DNA of 64,000 nucleotides from NCBI GenBank assembly GCA_036362785.1, contig CP143625.1, forward strand, positions 1,117,401 through 1,181,400. The letters are read 5' to 3'. This DNA is from a beta proteobacterium MWH-UniP1 (lineage in GTDB: Bacteria > Pseudomonadota > Gammaproteobacteria > Burkholderiales > Burkholderiaceae_A). Position numbers and translations under genes: made by a program. Position 1 is the stretch's first letter; the number at the start of each line of letters is the position of its first letter. Below the pieces are notes generated by a model. It had not been told where the DNA came from. It did not search any database and was given only the letters and a program-made list of their open reading frames with translations. This document shows positions 1 through 52,166 of this stretch, piece by piece.

Positions 1-3000
1 CGCGCCAGCTGCACCACCTAGTGCCGTGGCTGAACCGAGTTTCAATGTTCCAGCGCTGACGGTTGTTCCACCGGTGTAGGTGTTAGTACCCGAGACCAAT
101 AAAGTTCCGGTGCCAGATTTGATCAGCCCACCCGCCAAACCAACAATGTTCCCGCTTAGGGTGATCGCTTGATCGGTATTGACAGTTAAAAGGTGGGAGC
201 CATTTGTAATTCCCCCGCTGAACGTCACTCCCCCTGTGTTTGTGCTTTCAATTGTTGCAGCAGCAGAGAGGGCAATAGCGTTTGTCAGGTCGAAGGCGCT
301 AGAACCGGTTGCCACTAAACCACCACCGTTAAACGTTATCGATCCCGTGCCAAGTGTGCCGGCATCAGCCACCGAAACCTTACCTGCACTAATAGTAGTT
401 CCACCCGAGTATGTATTGCCCAGATTACTCAAACCAAGGGAACCGGCACCGGCTTTAACGACCGAGGCGTTCGTACCGCTAATAAGACCACTGTAAGTTG
501 AATTGCCGGACTGAGTGACCGTAAAACTACGGCCATTTGCCAAGGTGATACCGCCACTACCAGTCAACCCAGAGGTAAAGATGGAAATATCTCCCGTGGA
601 GGTATTTGTTGTGGTGATCGCCGCGCTTAGCTCAACATTCCCACCATAAATATTCACTAATCCATTTACGGTCTGGGAAGATCCCAGCGTGATATTCGCC
701 GTGTTCGTTGACTTACCAATCTTCAAGCCACTCAATGTGCTGCCAAAATTTAGATTGCTGAGCGGCCAGGTCAAGGCGGCAGCAAAACTATTACTGACCG
801 ACTCTACCGTCAGCGTTCCGGTGGTGTTGACTTTGGTTTTGTAGCTGCCATTTGCCTCAAATGTGAGTTTGTCCGCCTGGATCTTAATATTCGAGGAACT
901 AGACGTAAATGAACCCAACAAGGGTGTGGTGCCGTCAGAACCCAAAAAGATGTCAGCCGAAACGCTGGGTTTTAAGTAAAACCCGTTATAAATGCCTGTC
1001 GACCCGGCTGCTTGCTTATCCGTTAAGGTGATTGCACCCGATGCAGATAAGACTTTGACGCTATGACCGTCTACTACGACACCCCTTGCATTAGTCGAGA
1101 CTTTGCCACCCGTTCCAGTAATCGAAATTGCGCCGGTCTCTGTTCGAACTAAAGTGCCCCCACCGAGATTGACACCATACACAGATGCTGTGCTTGTTGT
1201 GTTCGCCGCATCACCTGTAATGCTGATGTTACCCACGCCGCTAGTCTTGAGATCTGTACCAAACAGCCAAAGTGCAAAATCGTTTGTACCCGTACCTGGA
1301 TCACCGCTACTACCGAAGGCACCACTTAATGTAATGTTTCCACCACCGGCATCAATAACCGCCCGGCTACCAGAAAGTGCCCCAACTTTTATTGCGTTAT
1401 CTACGCCTGTAGTGAATGCACCTCCAGCAGCAGAATATTCGATATTTCCGCCGCTGGTAGTTACGCTCACACCAGCGGCTTGGGTAATCTTTTGCCCGAC
1501 GATGGAAATGCTGGTTCCGCTACTTGCTGTACTTGTTAGATTGGCGCTGAGACTAGCGTTTCCGCCGTAAATACTGATTGGGCCAGCGATGCTGATCGCA
1601 TTCTCAATTATGATTTCGCTAGAGTTACCGCTTTTCCCGATGGTCACACTACCCAAGCCCGAATCAAAACTCCAGCCGCTATTTGTGAACGTACTGGAAA
1701 AGCTGGCTGACGACGGCTCAATGACTAAACGCCCTGTCCCAGTAAATGTCTTGCTGCTGGGATTGGGTGCGTCGTTTCTTAGCACGAGCGCCCCATCGTT
1801 GATCGTGGTGGTTCCGGTATAGGTATTGTTAGCCGTCAGCGCAAAGGTGCCCGTGCCTGCTTTGGTCAAGGTCGTGCCCGAACCGGAAATAGTCCCAGAC
1901 AGTGAACTGCTGCCATTACTCGTTGTAACGCTTAATGCGGAAATACCAGAAATAGATTTCGACCCTGTAATTTGCCCCGAGGTGGTCGTGAGCGATAGGG
2001 ATCTCCCTCCGTTGGTATATCCAGTTGAAGATGTATAGGTCTCTCTGACACGATGGAGCTCAAGGCTCTCATCATTGATGTCTTGATTTGTATTGGTCCA
2101 GGTAGTGAGCGTTCCGTTATGCTGTGCCAAAAAAGTGACATCGACATAGACATCATTCCAGCTAGAGCGCCCAAGGGCACTTGGTCCTGTTATCTGATAC
2201 TGGGTGCCGTAGTTCGCGACTATGTTTGATAACTCGTTGCCTCCGCCGCCGTGCGTTCGGTGGGCAGTAAAGTAGTAGTACCAAGAAGCCCCGTCAACGA
2301 CAACCAATTCTCCCCGTTCATTATCCCAGCTGTCCCAAAAATATAGCCGTGTGGAGTATTCGCGTCCCGAAACAACATTGATGCCGTACGTCTTCGAGCC
2401 GTTGGTGTGCGCCCCACCCCAACCGCTAAGGAGAAAACTCGTATGGATATCATGAAATGTAGTCGTGTATCCCAAAGAACCGGTACCCAAGGTTAAAGCC
2501 CCCGAGCCGGTGTTGAGCGCAACCGAACCATTACCTGATTGCCTCAAAAGCTGAATATTCGAGCTGCCGAAATCAAGACTGCCGCCACCAGTGGTGACAG
2601 ATTGGGTGCCACTGGTTTTTTGGAGATGTACTGTCCCAGTGTTGAAAGTAATTGCACCCCCCTTCGTCGTTATGTCCCCGTTCAGAAGAACTCGATCGCC
2701 GCTCGCGTTAAACGTTAGACCTAACGAACCGGATCCATCTGCTGTGATGTTCCCTTTAATCCAAATATCCTTGTCAGCGGTCAGCGTGAGCGTTCGGGCA
2801 TTACTACCCGTGTAACTAAAGTTGTCGAAAAATACAATATGACCAGCTATCGAGGTTCCCGCTAAGACTCCGTCTGATCCACCACCACTTGAACTTGCGG
2901 TTGAGATCGTGACGTTATTGCTCAACAAGCTACTATTAAGCGTGGACAGCTCACTAGAACCCAGAAAAAAGTTGTAGGGATCTAGTAGCCAGTTACCTGC

Positions 3001-4341
3001 GGTGCCGTCGGCGGCAAGGGTGCTCACTGATATACCGTCGTAGTGAAGTTGACGCCCAGACGTCTCAATCTGCCCCCCATCACCACCGTTCACGCCACCC
3101 TTGGCGAAGATGGATCCATGTGCTGCAGTAATGGAATTCGGGTTGCGCACATCAGACCACAACACCACCGTGCCGCCACTGCCGGTATCAAGGGCCGATG
3201 CATCGATGGTGGCGCCCTCGGCCATGGCGACAGTTGTGGCTTGGTGCATGTCACCTTTACCCTGCCACCCACCGCCCACGAGTACTTCACCACCACCGGT
3301 AGCACCCTTGGCTTCAATCTTTGATGTCGCCGTTAAGGTGATGTCATCACCTTCCAGCAGAATTCTTCCGCCACGTTCGGTAATGCTGGATGCAATCAGT
3401 TCACCGGATTGCTTCACCACACCACCCAGAATTTCACTCTGGGCGCGGGAAGACAGAATGATTAATCCGCCGGGTGCATGCACCGCGTGTTTGTTTTCCA
3501 CCAGCGTTTTAATGGTGGCGGGCTCAACGCGAATGCCAGCCAGGCTTTTATCGTTAATGTTGAGCTCAAACGCTTCGCCAGCCGCCAAAGCAACTGTGCC
3601 CATCTGCGCCACGATCACGCCTTCGTTTCTGACTTCTGGCGCAAGTAGCGCAATGTAGCCATTTAACGCGGCTTTGATCTGGCCTTCGTTCACCACACTG
3701 CCGGTGGCGCCATCACGGGTGAAGCGCAATTTGCCCGCCATGAAGTCTTCGTTGCCAATACTGTGAGTGGTGGCCACCAAGCCGCCCACATCCACGCTCG
3801 CCGTTCTGCCAAACAAAATGCCGCTGGGGTTGGTGAGAAACAGCTGACCATTACTGGTCAGTCTTCCAAAGATCTGCGTGGGGTTACCGCTGGTCACGCG
3901 GCTTAGTGTTGCACTACTGGCGCTGGGCACCACGTAGTTCACCTGGGCATTGGCGCCAATGTCATGCCCACTCCAATTAATCACTGCACGGTTGGTGCTT
4001 TGATTAATCGTCATCACCGGTGCATTTACAGCACCACCAGAATTAATACTGGCCTGGCCCGCCACCACCTGACCATTGGTGGGCAGTTGGTTTACATCAG
4101 GCGCAGCATGTGCAATAAACGGTAAGAACGACAGCAGTCCAGAGGCCGCCATCAGCCGCGCAAAGACTTTTAAGTTTGGCGGCGCATTAATCTGTTGTTG
4201 CGCATCTTCGCTATCAACAACAACACTGCGCGACACCAGCCGAACCGAAGACTTCTCCTTGCCGTGGGCGCGCACGGTCTCGGCCACCACGACAATGCAA
4301 TGGTGGACCCTGCTCCAGATGCAGCGGAAAGATCGGTTCAT
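1..4341 (-). CDS. Two-partner-secretion (TpsA / filamentous haemagglutinin-like) adhesin, 3' end beyond window
   Basis: One open frame of 1447 codons runs without a stop from an ATG at 4341 to the left edge; I checked parts of it by translation. The N-terminus (MNRSFRCIWS...VVVAET) is an extended signal peptide region. A hydrophobic stretch at about residues 57-79 follows and ends in AHA, a likely signal peptidase site. Residues about 85-195 are a TPS secretion domain (LPTNGQVVAG, NPSGILFGR). The rest is Gly/Ser/Thr/Asn-rich, as expected for a beta-helix, with passenger-associated strand repeats of the type NTYTGGTTVSAGTLKLG near residues 838, 1305 and 1410. An aromatic-rich block at about 625-770 looks like a separate inserted domain. 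The likely role is a secreted surface adhesin exported by a TpsB porin; none is visible here. Two kinase/regulator pairs lie just upstream on the same strand. The passenger is more AT-rich than the N-terminal third. Confidence 0.9.
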   Translation of the reverse strand, partial: MNRSFRCIWSRVHHCIVVVAETVRAHGKEKSSVRLVSRSVVVDSEDAQQQINAPPNLKVFARLMAASGLLSFLPFIAHAAPDVNQLPTNGQVVAGQASINSGGAVNAPVMTINQSTNRAVINWSGHDIGANAQVNYVVPSASSATLSRVTSGNPTQIFGRLTSNGQLFLTNPSGILFGRTASVDVGGLVATTHSIGNEDFMAGKLRFTRDGATGSVVNEGQIKAALNGYIALLAPEVRNEGVIVAQMGTVALAAGEAFELNINDKSLAGIRVEPATIKTLVENKHAVHAPGGLIILSSRAQSEILGGVVKQSGELIASSITERGGRILLEGDDITLTATSKIEAKGATGGGEVLVGGGWQGKGDMHQATTVAMAEGATIDASALDTGSGGTVVLWSDVRNPNSITAAHGSIFAKGGVNGGDGGQIETSGRQLHYDGISVSTLAADGTAGNWLLDPYNFFLGSSELSTLNSSLLSNNVTISTASSSGGGSDGVLAGTSIAGHIVFFDNFSYTGSNARTLTLTADKDIWIKGNITADGSGSLGLTFNASGDRVLLNGDITTKGGAITFNTGTVHLQKTSGTQSVTTGGGSLDFGSSNIQLLRQSGNGSVALNTGSGALTLGTGSLGYTTTFHDIHTSFLLSGWGGAHTNGSKTYGINVVSGREYSTRLYFWDSWDNERGELVVVDGASWYYYFTAHRTHGGGGNELSNIVANYGTQYQITGPSALGRSSWNDVYVDVTFLAQHNGTLTTWTNTNQDINDESLELHRVRETYTSSTGYTNGGRSLSLTTTSGQITGSKSISGISALSVTTSNGSSSLSGTISGSGTTLTKAGTGTFALTANNTYTGTTTINDGALVLRNDAPNPSSKTFTGTGRLVIEPSSASFSSTFTNSGWSFDSGLGSVTIGKSGNSSEIIIENAISIAGPISIYGGNASLSANLTSTASSGTSISIVGQKITQAAGVSVTTSGGNIEYSAAGGAFTTGVDNAIKVGALSGSRAVIDAGGGNITLSGAFGSSGDPGTGTNDFALWLFGTDLKTSGVGNISITGDAANTTSTASVYGVNLGGGTLVRTETGAISITGTGGKVSTNARGVVVDGHSVKVLSASGAITLTDKQAAGSTGIYNGFYLKPSVSADIFLGSDGTTPLLGSFTSSSSNIKIQADKLTFEANGSYKTKVNTTGTLTVESVSNSFAAALTWPLSNLNFGSTLSGLKIGKSTNTANITLGSSQTVNGLVNIYGGNVELSAAITTTNTSTGDISIFTSGLTGSGGITLANGRSFTVTQSGNSTYSGLISGTNASVVKAGAGSLGLSNLGNTYSGGTTISAGKVSVADAGTLGTGSITFNGGGLVATGSSAFDLTNAIALSAAATIESTNTGGVTFSGGITNGSHLLTVNTDQAITLSGNIVGLAGGLIKSGTGTLLVSGTNTYTGGTTVSAGTLKLGSATALGGAAGA
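558..834 (-). repeat. Internal adhesin repeat, copy B (about residues 1170-1262)
   Basis: This stretch and the one at 1483-1755 encode about 92 residues with the same skeleton: a Gly-Thr-x-Leu-x-Val-Glu start, an SF motif, GKS-x-N, then IYGGN-x-x-LSA and a closing Ile-Ser-Ile strand. The two copies start about 307 residues apart, which suggests duplication of a beta-helix unit. Confidence 0.6.
1483..1755 (-). repeat. Internal adhesin repeat, copy A (about residues 863-953)
   Basis: This is the partner of the repeat at 558-834. It carries IGKSGN, SIYGGNASLSA and a closing SISIVGQ strand. Similarity is at the protein level only; the DNA has diverged. Confidence 0.6.
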
Positions 4342-4421
4342 ACCCCAACATGATAAAAATCAATGGGTTACGAACATTAACGAAGGTAAATGGGATGGGG
4401 GTGGTACTGAACTTGTCCGGA

Positions 4422-5114
4422 TTAAGATTTCAGGACAATTGGAGTCGCCAGGCGGTAGCCTACCCCACGAATTGGTCGAATGGTTTCTGTGCAGCCCGCC
4501 TGCTCTAACTTTTTGCGGATCTTACTCACCCGCACTTCCATCGTCGCGCTGTCCTCCAGCCGATCCAGCCCTATATTTAAGTGCTCGGCCACCTGAAATC
4601 GCTCCAAGGTGAAGTTGGGCGCCCGAGCAAAGGCTGCCAGCAGCTGAGTCTCGCCGGGGGTCAGGCTGACCCGAATATCCCCGTGCAGTAACTGCATGGC
4701 CTGGGTGTCTAAACTGAGTTGACGCTCTTCTTGTCCGGTACCTCTTAGCCTGCGGCCCAGCGAACTTACCGCCGCTAGCAGTTCTTCGGGGGCGACAGGT
4801 TTTGAAAGGTAAATGTCCGCCCCGCTTTCATAGCCTTGGGCACGCTGATCACTATGGGTTCTGGCAGTGGTCATGATGATCCCCACACGGGGACTGGCCG
4901 CCCGAAGCCGCTTGGCCAGACTGATGCCATCTTCACCGGGCAGGTTCAAATCCAGCACAAAGATATCGGCGTTGTGCGTCTGGGGGCTGTCTTCTAGTTC
5001 TTCAGCCGCGATCAAGCCAACCACATGGTGGCCAGCACTGGCCAGTGCCGCCACGGTTGCCTCTCGCAGCAGATCGTGGTCTTCCACCACGACAATATTC
5101 AAAGGGGATGCCAT
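4422..5114 (-). CDS. OmpR/PhoB-family response regulator (pair 1)
   Basis: 230 residues. The receiver domain (1-120) has an acidic pair at E11/D12, the phospho-acceptor D55 in VLDLNLPGEDG, and the conserved Lys in LSKPV. The C-terminal half is a winged-helix DNA-binding domain of the OmpR type, ending in EVRVSKIRKKL and IRPIRGVGYRL. The ATG at 5114 overlaps the end of the kinase gene by 16 bp, so the two are translationally coupled and form a cognate pair. The adhesin begins 80 bp downstream on the same strand, which makes it a candidate target. It closely resembles the regulator at 7057-7743. Confidence 0.93.
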   Translation of the reverse strand: MASPLNIVVVEDHDLLREATVAALASAGHHVVGLIAAEELEDSPQTHNADIFVLDLNLPGEDGISLAKRLRAASPRVGIIMTTARTHSDQRAQGYESGADIYLSKPVAPEELLAAVSSLGRRLRGTGQEERQLSLDTQAMQLLHGDIRVSLTPGETQLLAAFARAPNFTLERFQVAEHLNIGLDRLEDSATMEVRVSKIRKKLEQAGCTETIRPIRGVGYRLATPIVLKS

Positions 5115-6994
5115 AAAACAAATCGTACCTTCTCAGGCGTGGGGCTGTATTCAATAGTGCCGCCGAGTCTGTGGATTAAGCCTTTGATCAGATAAGAACC
5201 CAAGCCCGAGCCCGACTGGCGGTGGGCCATGGGGCTTCGATAATATTTTGTGAAAAGTTTTTCTGGGTCAGGAAAACCCGCCGGGCCTGGCACATTTTCC
5301 ACCACCAGCGTAAAGCCGGGTTGCTGTAAGCCTGAAGCATTGGTTCGCGAAGCTTTTTCTAAAAACACCAATACGGTACTGCCATGGGCCCGGTACTTGC
5401 AGGCGTTATCCAACAGGTTCGACACAATCACCCGGAAAAACTCATAGTCAGTGGGCACACTGCCAACCGGATTCAGTTCCGATTGCACCGCAGCCGGTTC
5501 GCGACACTCGGCAATTAAATGCGCGATCTCTTTGCAGACATCCACCGCCGTGACTTGAAGATTTGTGGCATCGAACTCCACCCGGCCCGACTGCACACTA
5601 CGCTCAATCACCGAATCCATCTCACTAATCGCTTTAAGGATGCGTTCCACCGTGTCGCTGGTTGGGGGGCTGTTGCCCAACATCATGCGCATGGCCGATA
5701 GCGGTGTTTTTAGTTCGTGGCCCAGCATGGCCAGCAGGCGATCCCGCTCTTCACGGTTTTCACGTTCTTGGCTGGCGGTTTTTTGGCTCACCGCCAGTTC
5801 GGTCAGAAGTAGATTTTGATATTTCTGGCTTAAATTCACCCGGTACTGCAGCACGGCCACCGCCAGCGCCCCCGCCACAATGCCATTCACCAGTGGGGCA
5901 TACACCGTAAAGGCGCTCGACTGGGCAAGAAAGCCAATGCCGGCACTTCCGGCGATCAGCATGATCAGCAAGAGCACCCCAAAATACCCAAGCAGGATCG
6001 ATCTTGGCAAAAGCCGCACCTTGGTCTCCTGCCAGCCCCGCCCAAGGAATGCTGCGATCAAATTGATCACGGGAAATAACATGGCCGCTGTCCAGTTAAT
6101 CGTGAGTGCGATATGGGGTTTGCCCGACACAAACAATAAAAATGCCGTAAGCACCGCTGCGATATGCAGGCGATACACCCAGACCATGGCCAGCGGTGGC
6201 TTGAATTCCGAAATCAACCGGAAATAAAACCAACTTGCCGCCAGCACCGCACTGATCACCGAAAAGCTGAGCATTTCATTAACAACCGCTGGCCCCCAGC
6301 TATCTGATAGCCAGAGTCTTACGTAGCCAAACATCGTAAACCCGATCCACACGGCGCAGGCCTGGGAAAAAATAAAGGCAAACACAATGCGATCCTTGGT
6401 CACAAACCAGGTGAACACGGCCCACAGAAAAAATATCGCGCTAATCCCAAGATACAGACCAGAAAAGATCAGCAAGCCCTGGTCTTCGCGCTGAAGCTCT
6501 GCCAGCGTAAAGGCCTGAGCCTCGATCATCCGGGTGCTGGTGCTCTCCACGCGTAAATAAATGTCGCGCGCCCGGTCGCCCTTTGGAAGCACGAAATTAA
6601 AATTGAGCGACTGAAATTCATCTTGGGACACTGGGGTCAGGTCGCCACTTTTTTTCGGCTGTGCAAGGTCCTGAGCGGGGTCATACAAAACAATGCTGTC
6701 TAAATACGTGGGCCGCACACGCAAGACAGCACGGTCCGCCACCAGCGATGTTTCTGTTGATTTGACCGTTGGGTCAAAGGTAAGCCGCAGCCAAATCACC
6801 CCTTTGCCAATGCCGCGACTCAGCACCCCGGTATAGGGCGTAAATTCTTGGGTTTTGGCCTGCTCAAAGGACAGCGAGGCACTTTTATCTTCAAACCAGG
6901 CCCGGGCCGTGATGAGATCAGCCGCCATGCTTGGCCGCATGCCCGCCAAAACGACAGCAAGCAGAAAGACGACAAAAGCAATCCTATGACGCAC
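5099..6994 (-). CDS. 7TMR-DISM sensor histidine kinase (pair 1)
   Basis: An inner-membrane sensor. With the GTG at 6994 it starts MRHRIAFVVFLLAVVLAG, a good signal peptide preceded by AAGG; the frame stays open upstream to a GTG at 7081, which would add 29 hydrophilic residues. The order of parts is signal peptide, periplasmic DISMED2-type beta domain (AWFED...WLRLTFDP), about seven membrane helices (residues about 170-370), a short coiled coil rich in Gln/Glu/Arg, a HisKA box with phospho-acceptor His426 in GHELKTPL, and an HATPase_c domain (NLLDNACKY, GSGLGSYLIKG). Such sensors often detect small carbohydrates or other periplasmic ligands. It lies between two regulators and pairs with the downstream one by overlap. 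Confidence 0.9.
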   Translation of the reverse strand: MRHRIAFVVFLLAVVLAGMRPSMAADLITARAWFEDKSASLSFEQAKTQEFTPYTGVLSRGIGKGVIWLRLTFDPTVKSTETSLVADRAVLRVRPTYLDSIVLYDPAQDLAQPKKSGDLTPVSQDEFQSLNFNFVLPKGDRARDIYLRVESTSTRMIEAQAFTLAELQREDQGLLIFSGLYLGISAIFFLWAVFTWFVTKDRIVFAFIFSQACAVWIGFTMFGYVRLWLSDSWGPAVVNEMLSFSVISAVLAASWFYFRLISEFKPPLAMVWVYRLHIAAVLTAFLLFVSGKPHIALTINWTAAMLFPVINLIAAFLGRGWQETKVRLLPRSILLGYFGVLLLIMLIAGSAGIGFLAQSSAFTVYAPLVNGIVAGALAVAVLQYRVNLSQKYQNLLLTELAVSQKTASQERENREERDRLLAMLGHELKTPLSAMRMMLGNSPPTSDTVERILKAISEMDSVIERSVQSGRVEFDATNLQVTAVDVCKEIAHLIAECREPAAVQSELNPVGSVPTDYEFFRVIVSNLLDNACKYRAHGSTVLVFLEKASRTNASGLQQPGFTLVVENVPGPAGFPDPEKLFTKYYRSPMAHRQSGSGLGSYLIKGLIHRLGGTIEYSPTPEKVRFVLWHPL

Positions 6995-7056
6995 TGCCTG
7001 CCTTGTGTTGTTGGGAATCTTGATAGACCAAGGACTGCCGTCGATCAATCGCCACG

Positions 7057-7743
7057 CTAACTGATCGCCACCGAGATACACAGCTTATAGCCAAGACCAC
7101 GGATGGCTTTGATGGTGGGCTCATCGGCGCCCACTTGATTGAGTTTTTTTCTCAGCCGGCTTAGCCGCACTTCCAGGCTTGTGGCATTTAACACTTCACC
7201 ATTCACACACAGACTATTGGCCACCTGGTAGCGCTCTAACTGTTCACCCTTTGCACGAACGAATGCACTGATCAAATTGGATTCCGACTGGGTGACGCCC
7301 GCCTCGCCGGCTGGGCCGCGTATTTTTAACTTGAGTGCATCAAGCGTTAAGGTGCATTCATTGGGAACGGGTCTGACCCTGTGGGCAACGGCCTGGATGG
7401 CCGCCAACAATTCCTCTGGGTCGACCGGCTTGGGCAGATAAATATCCGCGCCGCTCTCATACCCACTGATGCGATCTTTAATCTCTGATCGTGCGGTGAC
7501 CATGACAATCCCCACACGCGGGTGAGACTCTCGGAGACGCTTTGAAAGACTCAGGCCATCTTCACCCGGTAGATTCAGATCAATGACATACAAGTCAGGC
7601 GGCTGCAAGCTTGTTGTGTCGTCAACATCTTCGGCACTAAAGACACCCTTGGCGCTATGGCCGGCATTGTTCAATGCCGACACCATGGCATTACGCAGCA
7701 TGTCGTGATCTTCAACCACTAAGACAGAGAGTTGGGCAGCCAT
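7057..7743 (-). CDS. OmpR/PhoB-family response regulator (pair 2)
   Basis: 228 residues. The receiver domain has E11/D12, acceptor D55 (VIDLNLPGEDG) and the Lys in LPKPV; the C-terminal winged helix ends IKAIRGLGYKL. The ATG at 7743 has a GAGG ribosome site and overlaps the kinase gene by 25 bp. It is a paralogue of the regulator at 4422-5114: the segments VVEDHD, NLPGEDG and GYESGADIYL are shared, so the two pairs probably come from a tandem duplication. The DNA-binding halves differ more than the receivers, so target sites may have diverged (inference). Confidence 0.93.
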   Translation of the reverse strand: MAAQLSVLVVEDHDMLRNAMVSALNNAGHSAKGVFSAEDVDDTTSLQPPDLYVIDLNLPGEDGLSLSKRLRESHPRVGIVMVTARSEIKDRISGYESGADIYLPKPVDPEELLAAIQAVAHRVRPVPNECTLTLDALKLKIRGPAGEAGVTQSESNLISAFVRAKGEQLERYQVANSLCVNGEVLNATSLEVRLSRLRKKLNQVGADEPTIKAIRGLGYKLCISVAIS

Positions 7744-9632
7744 ACAAAAAACCTCACTTTATCCGCTGTAGGGCGGTAATCGATTTTACCTTTTAGCACT
7801 GCCAAAAGGCCCTTGACCAGATACATGCCCAGGCCAGAGCCGGTCTGCCGGTAGGCCATGGGGCTTCGGTAATACTTGTTGTAGACCTGGGCGGGGTCGG
7901 GAAAGCCCGCGGGCCCAGGCGTATTTTCAACCACCAGCTCAATTGCATGTTGATCATCCCGTGGGGTGACGGTAATGCCCACCCCAGTGCCCTCTTCCCG
8001 ATACTTCAGGGCGTTGTCGATCAAGTTGGAGATCACCATGCGGAAAAATTGTGCGTCTGTTCGGATGCGCAGCGATGCCGGGGCGTTGAGATCAATGGCC
8101 GACCAATTCTCAATCGTGCCGCTGACAATGTCGGAGATTTCACCGACCGCATCAATCTCCGATATATCAGGCGTCAGCTTTGACTCATCGAGCTGATTCA
8201 CCTGAACGCTACGCTCAATCACCAGGCTCATTTCCGCTACCGATCGCTTGATTTGACGAATGCTCTCTTCGTTTAGTTGCTGCTCACCCACCAATAGCCG
8301 CACAGTTGCTAGCGGCGTGCGAAGCTCATGGGCCAGCATCGCCAACAATCGTTCACGCTCTTCTCGAAACGCCCGCTCTTGCTGGACCTCCTGCTGGGCC
8401 ATGGTGAGCTCCATGGCCAGGGCGGCTCTTTTTTGCGACAGCAAGTAACTGCGGTATTGCAGAATGCCAACCGCAAAGGCGCCATTGATAATGCCGTGGG
8501 CCAGGCCAACATAAATGGAATACGCACCACCGGACGCCAGCCCAAGCCCAGGCAGTGCACCAGCCAGTAGCACCAACAAGTTTGCGGCAAAGTACATGAA
8601 GACTAGCCATCTGGGCACCAGTGGTGGCTGATCTGGCTGGCGCAAACGCCAGCCTTTGGCAGTAAAGACCATGGCAAAGGTGACAAACGGCACCACCAAC
8701 ACCAGAGTCATGTTGATCTGCAAGGCCAACCGAATCTGCCCAAAAAGCAGCAGCACAAAGTTCACCAGCCCAATAACGAAAAACACCCCCAATGCCTTGA
8801 GTAATACATTGGCGGGTTTGTACTCTTGCCAGAACCGGTAATAGAAAAAAATGGCGGATGTGACGATCAGCACGCTGGAATAGCTGGTGATTTGGTTAAT
8901 CACGCTCGGGGGCCATACGCTGCCAAAAAAATCGCGGACATAACCGAAAATGGACAACCCAAGGCAGAGCGAAAAAAACTGTGTTACCAAAAAAGCAGAG
9001 ATCACCGGGTCGCGAGTGCTCAGCCAGGTGATTGCGGCCCAGCCCAGAAACAGGCTTACTAGCGACAAATACAAACCAAACAACAACTGCTGTGATCGGT
9101 CTTCACGCTGCAGATCCGTCAGGTGATACGCCTGCACATACAGCAGTCGTGTGCTGGTGGAACGAACACGCAGATAAATGTCTCGTTCGGTCTCTCCCCG
9201 CGGAATCACAAAGTTAAAGTTCAGGGATTGGTATTCCGCAGCGCGGGCCGGAAACTGGTCCCCGGTAATACGGCGAAGGCCACTCGGATCGGCCGGATCA
9301 AATAACTCTATTTCGTCGATATAGAGCGGCCGAATTTTTAGAATCAACGACCGTGCCGCTGGCCCCACCACTGTTTTGTCACTGTGCGGGTCAATGGTAA
9401 GCCGCACCCAAATGGTGGAGTCACCAAACCCTTTGGATAAAAACCATTGGTACGGCGTGAACGGCTTTTCTTGAATCTCGGCAAAAGTTAACTTATTGCT
9501 GGGGTCTTCGAACCAGGCTTGCGCCACAACATGGTTGGTGTCATCCGCCAGGGCCGCCCGTGGCCACACCACCGTGACACAGAAAAAACAAAGAGCTGCG
9601 ATGGCAGCTCTTTGTAGCAAGGTCAGCAACAC
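7719..9632 (-). CDS. 7TMR-DISM sensor histidine kinase (pair 2)
   Basis: 637 residues from a GTG at 9632. It has a signal peptide (about 1-29, ending ALA), a periplasmic DISMED2-type domain (AWFEDPS...IWVRLTIDP), seven predicted membrane helices, a linker coiled coil (QQEVQQERAFREERERL), a HisKA box with His435 in AHELRTPL, and an HATPase_c domain (NLIDNALKYREEG, GSGLGMYLVKG). Its parts and many short motifs match the kinase at 5099-6994. The gene begins 24 bp after the thiolase stop codon on the same strand, so it could be transcribed by read-through from the PHA operon; I see no terminator between them. Confidence 0.92.
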   Translation of the reverse strand: MLLTLLQRAAIAALCFFCVTVVWPRAALADDTNHVVAQAWFEDPSNKLTFAEIQEKPFTPYQWFLSKGFGDSTIWVRLTIDPHSDKTVVGPAARSLILKIRPLYIDEIELFDPADPSGLRRITGDQFPARAAEYQSLNFNFVIPRGETERDIYLRVRSTSTRLLYVQAYHLTDLQREDRSQQLLFGLYLSLVSLFLGWAAITWLSTRDPVISAFLVTQFFSLCLGLSIFGYVRDFFGSVWPPSVINQITSYSSVLIVTSAIFFYYRFWQEYKPANVLLKALGVFFVIGLVNFVLLLFGQIRLALQINMTLVLVVPFVTFAMVFTAKGWRLRQPDQPPLVPRWLVFMYFAANLLVLLAGALPGLGLASGGAYSIYVGLAHGIINGAFAVGILQYRSYLLSQKRAALAMELTMAQQEVQQERAFREERERLLAMLAHELRTPLATVRLLVGEQQLNEESIRQIKRSVAEMSLVIERSVQVNQLDESKLTPDISEIDAVGEISDIVSGTIENWSAIDLNAPASLRIRTDAQFFRMVISNLIDNALKYREEGTGVGITVTPRDDQHAIELVVENTPGPAGFPDPAQVYNKYYRSPMAYRQTGSGLGMYLVKGLLAVLKGKIDYRPTADKVRFFVWLPNSLS

Positions 9633-28455: not shown

Positions 28456-28540
28456 GATGCTTCACCCTTCTAGGCCTTTGGCCTGAATCGATGCAGGTTT
28501 AACCTTCCGCGACACGGCCTCACCGATTAGCGGATTGCTA

Positions 28541-47585: not shown

Positions 47586-47631
47586 GAATAGACCTTTCAG
47601 GCCGCCCACACCCCGTGACGACAAAAAACAT

Positions 47632-47855
47632 TTGCGTCAACGGCCGGTATCCAGGCTGGGGGTGGCGCATGCCAGAAAGCACGCCTTGATCGATTGCCTT
47701 CCCAAGATCAGCGATCTCAGTGGCTGGGCCTGCGCCTGTTCAAAAGGGTCAGACCGTAACCGATCAATTCACCCGTTACTGTTTCGGGGGAAGCGCCGGA
47801 TTCTCACCAGCTTCCCGTTTAACCCGCGTTAAGCAGGCACCAGATGACGGTGTTT
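47632..47855 (-). promoter_or_regulatory. Cobalamin (B12) riboswitch
   Basis: On the minus strand the 224-bp leader of btuB carries the expected elements in order: GGTGCC (47836-47841), the GGGAAGCTGGTGAGAATCC core, AGCCACTG, GGGAAGGC, and the B12 box AGCCTGGATACCGGCC (47642-47657). A stem with arms TGACG/CGTCA lies just after the box and before the ribosome site. High adenosylcobalamin should switch btuB off. The rest of the 47586-47951 gap holds only the inverted repeat at 47887-47918. Confidence 0.93.
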
Positions 47856-47886
47856 GAAGGATCTCAAACAGGCATCAGTGTAACGC

Positions 47887-49440: not shown

Positions 49441-50142
49441 CTAAAGCAGACGACTATGGCCACCAAAGACATAGCCCTCGCCATAGTTGGAGATCAGCGG
49501 AAAGGCTTGACCGGTGCGGTCCAAGACCTTTTTTCTGAGCCGACTCACCATGACTTCCAGGCTTGGTCCAGTCATGGGCGAACCGGCAAGCTCAAAGACT
49601 TTGAAAATCGCCTCGCGGGTGGCCAGCTGCTGGGGACTTCGAAAGAGTTCTGCCAATAGCATCGCCTCGCGGCGACTCACATGCAAGTCCGGCTGGCCAC
49701 TCACCGATAAGACTTGTCGGGCCGTATCCAATGCCCAGACCACCATCAGCGACGAACTCACCATGGGCGACGATACCGGCATTGAAAGTCGGCGCAGCAG
49801 ACTAGTTATTGTGGCCTGTATTTCATCGGGTTCCACTGGCTTGACCAGATAGGCGTCAGCACCTTCGTTTAAACCCTGTATGCGTAGCTCTCGTTCACTT
49901 CGGCCAGTGCAAACCACAATGCCAGCAGCAAGATATGGCCGAACACGCTTACAGAACTCAAGCCCGCTGCCATCCGGCAGATTGATGTCGAGAAACAGAA
50001 TATCGAATTGCTGCGAGAGTGCCGCGTCCGCTTCCTTCATGGTGGCCACTGATTTCACCAGATAACCACATGTCTGCAGATATTCCTCTAGCTCGCCACG
50101 GAAAACCGGATCGTCTTCGACGATCAAGATCGAATGTCTCAT
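49441..50142 (-). CDS. OmpR/PhoB-family response regulator (pair 3)
   Basis: 233 residues from the ATG at 50142 (MRHSILIVEDD). The receiver has D10/D11, acceptor D52 (FLDINLPDGSG) and the Lys of LVKPVEP; the winged helix ends SNYGEGYVFGG. It is related to the two regulators near 4.4-7.7 kb but clearly more distant. A 53-bp gap separates it from its kinase. Confidence 0.92.
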   Translation of the reverse strand: MRHSILIVEDDPVFRGELEEYLQTCGYLVKSVATMKEADAALSQQFDILFLDINLPDGSGLEFCKRVRPYLAAGIVVCTGRSERELRIQGLNEGADAYLVKPVEPDEIQATITSLLRRLSMPVSSPMVSSSLMVVWALDTARQVLSVSGQPDLHVSRREAMLLAELFRSPQQLATREAIFKVFELAGSPMTGPSLEVMVSRLRKKVLDRTGQAFPLISNYGEGYVFGGHSRLL

Positions 50143-50195
50143 ATAAAAACGAATTCTCCACCCGGCAAAAAATGCCTGCAAACACCTACAAAGCC

Positions 50196-52166
50196 TTACA
50201 GCGGGATCTCCAATCGAAACTCACTTAGGCTGCGGCCTTCATGCACCGTCCGGTGATAGCTTGCTCTTCCCTGGTGCAACTCTGCAATTCGGCGAACCGT
50301 GGCCAGCCCGATGCCAAACCCCTCTTTCCCGGCCTGCTCCGCCCCACCAGAGGGGGAACGCCAGTAGATTTTAAATAGCCGGTCGACCTCGTTATCGGGA
50401 ACTCCGGAACCGTAATCAATGACCGAAAAGCAAAGCTGCTCATCCGTCATCTGCACCAACAACTGAACTGGGGATTGTTCAGGCGAATACTTCGCCGCGT
50501 TGGTCAGCAGATTCACCAAAGCCAGTTCGATCAACTCACCATCGAGTGAGACCAAGCTTGGAATAGCTGGATCGAATCTGTTTTCAAAGCGCCGCAGAGG
50601 CCAGGCATCTTCCACAACTGCCAGGGCCCCCAAGGCAATCTCACGTGGATTGACGGGCTGGCGATTCAGCTGGAAATCGGCATGCGTTAAGCGCTGCAAT
50701 TGCAGGTGGCGCTCAATCATGTCGGCCATGCGTTTGCTGGTCATACGCAGGCGATCAATACGCTCTTGGGACTGCGGGTTCACAGCCCCGATATCTTTGA
50801 TTAAGTTGGTCAGCCCCATGCTGATGGCCGCAAGCGGTGTGCGCAAATCATGGGCCACGCCGGCGAAAAACAACGTCTGCTCTTTACGCAACGCCTGCTC
50901 CTGGTTGGCCAGTTGCATCGCGCTCTGGGCCAGGGTTTCAGAGCGGCGGCGCTCCACAATGGCACGACGTACTTCTGAAATGGCGCCTTGATAGGCAAGA
51001 AACAAAAACCCAACCGTTCCGGCGATCCAGACATATTCGTAAAACGGAATTGGCGCAATCCACCCCAACGCAATCATGGGCGCAATAAAGTAGCTCACGG
51101 AGAAGATTAAAAACCCCACAAGAAAATAATTCGCGCCTTCCATACCAACACGGAAATTACGAAACGCGATCCAACCAATGATCGACACGCCCGTAATCAA
51201 CGACATCATGATGAATGGCCCGCCCACAGTGGCGTAAACACCAAAATAGCGGGTCAATGGTGCCAGCAATGCCACTGCCGCAATGCCGCGCAACAGCCGA
51301 TCAATAATTGGGTAGTGCTGATTGATAGCAAGTGGCCCGCGAAATACCCAAAGCACAGAAGCCACAAAGACACCAACTGTCCAGGGCACCAAGTTATCGC
51401 CAACCCAAGGTGTGTTTTGAAAGACGATCTGGCTCCACAGACCAAGCTGTGCCATCGACCCCGAAATCAGCAAGACCCCCAGCGCCGATAGGCCAAGAAA
51501 CTGCCGATTACGGCTCCAGAAAAAACTGTTCAAGTTCACCAGCGTGGTGATCAACGCCATCGCTAACAGCGCACCGATCAACAAATTTTCTTTTTGAATG
51601 CCTTGCAAAAACGCCTCTGGTGTGTAGAGCAAGAGCGAACCGGTTAGGGTCGAATCACCTTGTAACCGAATATAAAAAACATTGTGCTGCTCATCTTTAA
51701 GCGACACGGGAAAGACCGGGGTGCGATGCGGGTAGTTGCGGATCAGATATGGAAATTTATCGCCCGCCTGCATCTCCCGAAACCCATCCGCGGTTGGAAG
51801 ATAAAACCGAAAATCATCAATGTAAGACGTGTTGTATCGAATGAGCCAGTCTGCATAAGCAAACCGCTCTCGTGAGAGCGCGACACGAACCCATAGTGCG
51901 TCGTTGGTATAGCCAAAATTCAAGCCATTAATGGCGGGCTGAAATTTGGGCGCATAGGCTGCCGATGCGATGGTCTCTATCGTGAGAGATCGACTTGGGT
52001 CACGTAGCACCGAGAGCTCGGCAGGCCCGAGTGTGTGCGTGGTCTCACCTGCACGCAGGGGGCCATCGGCCTGCGCAAATGGCGCCGCACTCATGACAAC
52101 AACTAAAAAGATGGCGTTAAAGAGGCGCTTGAGATGCCCGATGCATGTCCCTGGCCACCGAATCAT
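50196..52166 (-). CDS. 7TMR-DISM sensor histidine kinase (pair 3)
   Basis: 656 residues. Signal peptide to about residue 34, a DISMED2-type periplasmic domain (LWVRVALSRERFAYADWLIRY is split around residue 95), seven predicted membrane helices (about 195-395), HisKA with His439 in VAHDLRTPLAA, and HATPase_c (NLLTNAAKYSPEQ, GFGIGLATVRR). The ATG at 52166 lies 5 bp after the stop of a 49-codon membrane-protein gene, so the two are probably coupled. Confidence 0.92.
   Translation of the reverse strand: MIRWPGTCIGHLKRLFNAIFLVVVMSAAPFAQADGPLRAGETTHTLGPAELSVLRDPSRSLTIETIASAAYAPKFQPAINGLNFGYTNDALWVRVALSRERFAYADWLIRYNTSYIDDFRFYLPTADGFREMQAGDKFPYLIRNYPHRTPVFPVSLKDEQHNVFYIRLQGDSTLTGSLLLYTPEAFLQGIQKENLLIGALLAMALITTLVNLNSFFWSRNRQFLGLSALGVLLISGSMAQLGLWSQIVFQNTPWVGDNLVPWTVGVFVASVLWVFRGPLAINQHYPIIDRLLRGIAAVALLAPLTRYFGVYATVGGPFIMMSLITGVSIIGWIAFRNFRVGMEGANYFLVGFLIFSVSYFIAPMIALGWIAPIPFYEYVWIAGTVGFLFLAYQGAISEVRRAIVERRRSETLAQSAMQLANQEQALRKEQTLFFAGVAHDLRTPLAAISMGLTNLIKDIGAVNPQSQERIDRLRMTSKRMADMIERHLQLQRLTHADFQLNRQPVNPREIALGALAVVEDAWPLRRFENRFDPAIPSLVSLDGELIELALVNLLTNAAKYSPEQSPVQLLVQMTDEQLCFSVIDYGSGVPDNEVDRLFKIYWRSPSGGAEQAGKEGFGIGLATVRRIAELHQGRASYHRTVHEGRSLSEFRLEIPL

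Follow-up and report, generated by a model that had tools for sequence, protein, structure and literature searches.

In Bordetella, the bvgAS genes adjoin fhaB and encode BvgS, a phosphorelay hybrid kinase, and BvgA, a regulator with a LuxR-type helix-turn-helix. PhoBR and CpxRA act globally and are encoded away from their TPS targets, and the known 7TMR-DISM sensor kinases, such as RetS, LadS and SagS, are orphans or hybrids that signal into Gac/Rsm or cyclic di-GMP (c-di-GMP) networks. BvgAS controls fhaB/fhaC, and two further sets of two-partner secretion (TPS) genes, pdtAB and lspB-lspA2, are under the two-component control of PhoBR/PUMA3 and CpxRA, respectively (PMC5422565). In Burkholderia thailandensis, the two-component system BfmSR is encoded with csu, an adhesion structure for biofilm, and activates its promoter (PMC12124856). 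Here, we analyzed a 64,000-nucleotide stretch of the genome of the beta proteobacterium MWH-UniP1 (hereafter the window; G000:C1:1117401-1181400 of a 2.05-Mb genome in a single contig), in which two consecutive pairs of a 7TMR-DISM sensor kinase and an OmpR/PhoB-type response regulator (K1-R1 and K2-R2) precede a giant TPS adhesin gene.

This arrangement is akin to BvgAS in placing a TPS adhesin under two-component control, control being predicted in the present case, and differs from it by the use of simple 7TMR-DISM kinases and OmpR-type regulators, with the pair present twice in tandem; neither pair contains a BvgAS-type hybrid kinase or a LuxR/NarL-type regulator. BfmSR is likewise a two-component system encoded beside surface adhesion genes, but it acts on a chaperone-usher pilus, and what is duplicated there is a whole 208-kb region; the likeness is drawn from the published description of that system. 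K1 and K2 share with RetS, LadS and SagS the combination of extracellular DISMED2 domain and kinase, with a 7TM module that scores only marginally in K1 and K2, and differ from them in that each has an OmpR-type regulator as its partner and lies next to the gene of a surface protein. Unlike K1-R1 and K2-R2, PhoBR and CpxRA are not members of a cassette. No description of 7TMR-DISM proteins with adhesins or TPS genes was found in the literature searched, whose coverage left out most subscription papers. The original prediction had regarded the arrangement as undescribed, which within this coverage stands for the association of 7TMR-DISM kinases with TPS genes, whereas two-component control of a TPS adhesin was known already (PMC5422565); what is new is a cassette family with a predicted operator, and its two-sensor form.

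The sensor-adhesin block and its counterpart in the same genome

We consider it likely that the locus is a gained-and-lost cassette of sensors and adhesin, in which the pairs switch the adhesin operon and an old tandem duplication provides two inputs to one adhesin. This reading rests on the anatomy of the locus, its block-wise presence and absence, the recurrence of such pairs with TPS genes, and tandem 10-bp repeats in relatives. The features concerned are the following (window coordinates):

7719..9632, minus strand: K1, sensor histidine kinase of 637 aa with signal sequence, 7TMR-DISMED2, marginal 7TM, HisKA (H435) and HATPase_c; true start uncertain
7057..7743, minus strand: R1, OmpR/PhoB-type response regulator of 228 aa; REC with D55, winged helix
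5099..7081, minus strand: K2, 7TMR-DISM sensor kinase of 660 aa, sister of K1; GTG start at 7081 possibly upstream of the true start
4422..5114, minus strand: R2, OmpR/PhoB-type response regulator of 230 aa
4342..4421, minus strand: R2-adhesin gap of 80 bp, with no family-operator match
1..4341, minus strand: 5' part of the adhesin gene, with ESPR, TPS domain and PATR repeats; extends past the window edge to genome position 1105009
9588..9615, minus strand: terminator-like hairpin and T-run that reach into the predicted 5' end of K1

The coordinates of the open reading frames (ORFs) bear out the original prediction that K1, R1, K2, R2 and the TPS adhesin are collinear on one strand, that each kinase overlaps its own regulator (K1/R1 by 25 bp, K2/R2 by 16 bp) and that the adhesin starts 80 bp past R2. 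Domain calls for kinases, regulators and adhesin were made using Pfam. HisKA with the phospho-acceptor His and HATPase_c were found in both K1 and K2 by Pfam and alignment, and the extracellular 7TMR-DISMED2 domain was recognized with E-values of 4.9e-17 in K1 and 3.2e-18 in K2, while 7TMR-DISM_7TM scored near or below its cut-off of 29 bits (K1 27.1-30.2, K2 22.3-26.2); no extra receiver or Hpt domain was detected in either kinase by Pfam. R1 and R2 each contain a receiver with the phospho-acceptor Asp and a winged helix (Response_reg, Trans_reg_C). According to the alignments, the N and G2 boxes of the kinases are present and the catalytic His and phospho-acceptor Asp are kept. None of the four regulatory genes is disrupted. 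In the G1 box, Asn stands in place of the customary Asp in 73 of the 76 kinases compared, including K1, K2 and K3 (see below). As the GTG starts assigned to K1 and K2 are longest-ORF starts, the apparent R1/K2 overlap may not be real. Moreover, the strong hairpin and T-run at 9588-9615, which probably terminates transcription of the upstream thiolase gene, lies inside the predicted K1 5' end, making the start and the expression of K1 uncertain. Sigma-70-like promoters were not in excess within 4-10 kb of the window (4 versus 4.0 in shuffles).

The adhesin gene spans ∼16.7 kb (genome 1105009-1121741; TPS domain E 1e-31, ESPR E 2.5e-10) and reads in two frames (∼3820 and 1758 codons), the break being located within near-identical MBG/YDG repeats (∼11882 of the locus sequence L005). 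It is followed by genes for a PpiC foldase, the cognate TpsB of the ShlB/FhaC type (L005:4068-5741; ShlB E 1e-28, POTRA_2), a SapC-domain protein, TonB, ExbB and an ExbD-like protein, the last four closing what we refer to as module 1 (L005 1240-4045). Another exbB/exbD pair is located near dnaB in the same genome (L218).

At its end, module 1 abuts the site TGTCGCATAATGTGTATTATGTAAA (genome 1099595-1099619; L005 1193-1222), present in one copy in the genome, which we take to be dif from knowledge of XerCD sites. GC skew around it changes from mostly positive to mostly negative, and site and skew change together likely mark the replication terminus. The thiolase gene, which is the upstream neighbour of K1, is found within ∼0.3 kb of the dif-like site in two sister species (G002, G004), with ankyrin and TatD genes beyond. 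Since the thiolase gene adjoins the dif-like site in these sisters, the 27.4 kb from K1 to ExbD form a single block, gained here or lost there. An Xer/dif-integrated element (IMEX), considered since the island abuts dif, was rejected, a second dif being absent from the far end and the site being single-copy genome-wide; no tRNA was found at the module 1 junction.

Genome-wide, there are exactly two TPS domains and four 7TMR-DISM kinases, and both TPS genes are preceded by a kinase and a regulator of the same family. At 713 kb, a regulator (R3) that overlaps its kinase (K3) precedes the other TPS adhesin by 90 bp, and this adhesin is followed by TpsB. This module 2 (K3, R3, TPS, TpsB; ∼13 kb) is inserted between a dehydrogenase gene and the rpsF-dnaB group, which are adjacent in four sister species lacking module 2. 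With K3 only 28% identical to K1 and R3 only 39% identical to R1, module 2 is no recent copy of module 1.

Recurrence with surface proteins and a predicted operator

To place the pairs in a wider context, 80 loci were retrieved from 84,980 species by a regulator-alignment scan that was blind to adhesins, the choice relying on regulator similarity alone. A TPS gene was present in 17 of these 80 loci, and a TPS or TpsB gene in 26. Given the background rate in 61 relatives (39 TPS genes in 167 Mb), the 1.10 Mb of locus sequence should contain 0.26 TPS genes by chance, corresponding to a ∼66-fold excess among loci that are not fully independent. Where these genes are present, the order is mostly kinase-regulator-(second regulator)-TpsB-TPS, either all in one direction or with the kinase divergent, and other loci adjoin further types of large surface protein (DUF4347, cadherin or Ig-repeat, FG-GAP/Big, YadA-like). 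That the pairs belong with the adhesin, as originally proposed, is thus upheld by the second kinase-regulator-TPS-TpsB locus, by block-wise absence in sister species and by TPS enrichment. The five-gene order itself, whose conservation in related genomes the original prediction had proposed as a check, was seen nowhere else: neither the 80 loci nor 399 genomes of the order, sampled independently and queried with the kinase sensor half, contained another tandem kinase pair before an adhesin. The arrangement kinase-regulator-kinase occurs once more (L141), with no adhesin in the sequence examined around that locus.

OmpR/PhoB-type regulators bind tandem direct-repeat sites, and the 20 intergenic gaps between regulator and TPS or TpsB gene were compared in this respect with 236 control gaps from the same loci. 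Tandem direct repeats of 10 bp were present in 12/20 TPS-side gaps versus 10/236 controls (Fisher p 5e-10), the signal being strongest at lag 10 (other lags 0-4/20). A tied-half motif sampler, trained with the present genome left out, converged on two copies of AAACCTACAA, that is, two copies of TTTGTAGGTT on the coding strand, which, given the binding mode of such regulators, represent a predicted operator; relatives with this predicted tandem site include regulators from Limnohabitans or Polaromonas (L069, L143). The resulting profile scores separated TPS gaps from controls (15/20 versus 4/236), a comparison that is partly circular as the profile was trained on those gaps; we therefore place more weight on the untrained lag-10 test and on held-out sites. 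In a 20-kb region centred on module 2, the profile scores highest within the R3-TPS gap (11.2), and over the entire 64-kb window it scores highest at the K4-R4 junction, where it matches a triple site (50172-50201, score 18.1). Degenerate operator patterns applied to the whole genome gave a strong match only at K4-R4, counts otherwise being no higher than those of a reversed-pattern control. K4-R4 is a further pair of 7TMR-DISM kinase and OmpR-type regulator (window 49441-52166), and the probable ATG of R4 lies near 50142, downstream of the triple operator-like site.

Taken together, the 17 TPS loci among 80 and the tandem repeats in TPS-side gaps establish that the sensor-adhesin cassette is real and recurrent, and make local control of the adhesin by the pairs likely. 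In the corresponding model, K1 and K2 would act as membrane sensors whose DISMED2 domain perceives an extracellular or envelope cue, and each kinase would phosphorylate its own overlapping OmpR-type regulator. The regulators, with R2 and perhaps R1 acting directly on the adhesin, would then activate, rather than repress, the operon made up of adhesin, PpiC, TpsB, SapC-like, TonB and ExbB genes at the level of transcription, by binding to tandem sites that precede the secretion genes. The module 1 kinase-regulator unit would have duplicated in tandem long ago, leaving two diverged inputs to one adhesin. A sensor family co-inherited with giant adhesins, together with a predicted operator, would offer a handle on when environmental betaproteobacteria deploy their adhesins, and the two-sensor form a testbed for duplicated two-component pairs sharing one target.

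Duplicated pairs, second regulators and alternative readings

The original prediction had suggested a recent duplication with diverged DNA-binding halves. K1 and K2 group together with 99% support in a 76-kinase tree, yet on long end branches and at 41% identity, and R1 and R2 are 48% identical overall, so that a local duplication is retained while its recency is not; the regulator tree did not settle whether R1 and R2 are sisters. Based on these comparisons, the duplication of K1-R1/K2-R2 is local but old. The identities of 57% for the receivers and 37% for the DNA-binding halves are ordinary for the family, given that, in a test on 1753 regulator pairs, 41% of comparable pairs were at least as diverged in the DNA-binding half; unusual divergence of the DNA-binding halves was accordingly discarded. 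Differences between K1-R1 and K2-R2 beside the phospho-acceptor His and in receiver helix 1 hint at an insulation of the two pairs.

In other genomes, a second DNA-binding protein is often encoded between the pair and TpsB. This second regulator is full-length in L091, L111, L118 (without the phospho-acceptor Asp) and L120, and eleven receiver-less OmpR-type winged-helix proteins of 98-123 aa were found just before a TpsB or RTX-repeat gene (loci L069, L074, L104, L105, L110, L134, L135, L139, L143 and L193), L193 carrying two such proteins, of which one precedes an RTX-repeat gene and the other a TPS gene. The tandem pair of the window may represent another answer to a need for two regulators per adhesin. 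More broadly, we lean slightly towards a model in which the clade of 7TMR-DISM kinases with an Asn G1 box forms, together with OmpR-type regulators, a transferable giant-surface-protein cassette of Betaproteobacteria and some Gammaproteobacteria, with a conserved operator (TTTGTAGGTT twice) and often a second regulator, be it a duplicated pair as here, a full regulator or a receiver-less DNA-binding domain of 98 aa such as those of L134 and L110, the window being its two-sensor form.

The main alternative, which we regard as a serious though not the expected outcome, is that only R2 acts on the adhesin, K1-R1 having drifted to other genes, engaging in cross-talk only or persisting as a duplication relic, in which case there would be no two-sensor switch. 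The sequence distances between R1 and R2 and between K1 and K2 would fit such a drift, as would the position of R2, which alone adjoins the adhesin, and the fact that single pairs are usual at other loci, module 2 of the same genome included. However, K1 and K2 both retain the phospho-acceptor His and the ATP-binding boxes, the block is present or absent as a whole, and many loci of the family carry two DNA-binding regulators ahead of one secretion operon.

Several observations weigh against control of the adhesin by the adjacent pairs. In the 399-genome sample, two of nine close kinases adjoin TPS/TpsB genes and two more adjoin autotransporters; in members of the taxonomic family to which MWH-UniP1 belongs, related pairs occur without an adhesin, beside rpoD/dnaG (L039, L042) or a TonB receptor (L041); and TPS genes are found in other species of the genus and family without such a pair upstream. 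Furthermore, no family operator is present in the R2-adhesin gap of the window (score -0.4), and its repeat TTCGTTAATGTTCGTAA (4368-4384) is a weak 10-bp direct repeat without significance (p ∼0.09); given this lack, the direct step from R2 to the adhesin is one that we infer. Pairs without an adjacent adhesin, which the original prediction had named as evidence against a dedicated switch, thus do exist among relatives, side by side with the TPS enrichment, indicating an association that is strong but partial. Such lone pairs and the operator-free gap would also suit a scenario in which the pairs are general envelope or metabolic regulators and no more than neighbours of an independently controlled adhesin; this scenario is unlikely in view of the ∼66-fold TPS enrichment, the two separate blocks of one genome that each combine a pair with TPS genes, and the tandem repeats in pair-to-TPS gaps elsewhere. 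Similarly improbable is a decaying cassette whose switch controls a non-functional gene, as the two-frame adhesin and the hairpin within the predicted K1 start might suggest, since the break falls in near-identical repeats, where assembly and sequencing errors are common, and the four regulatory genes are intact.

Other elements of the window

Besides the sensor-adhesin array, the window contains a sucA RNA motif (28458-28540) ahead of a sucA-like gene and a cobalamin riboswitch (47625-47860) ahead of a TonB-receptor-like gene.

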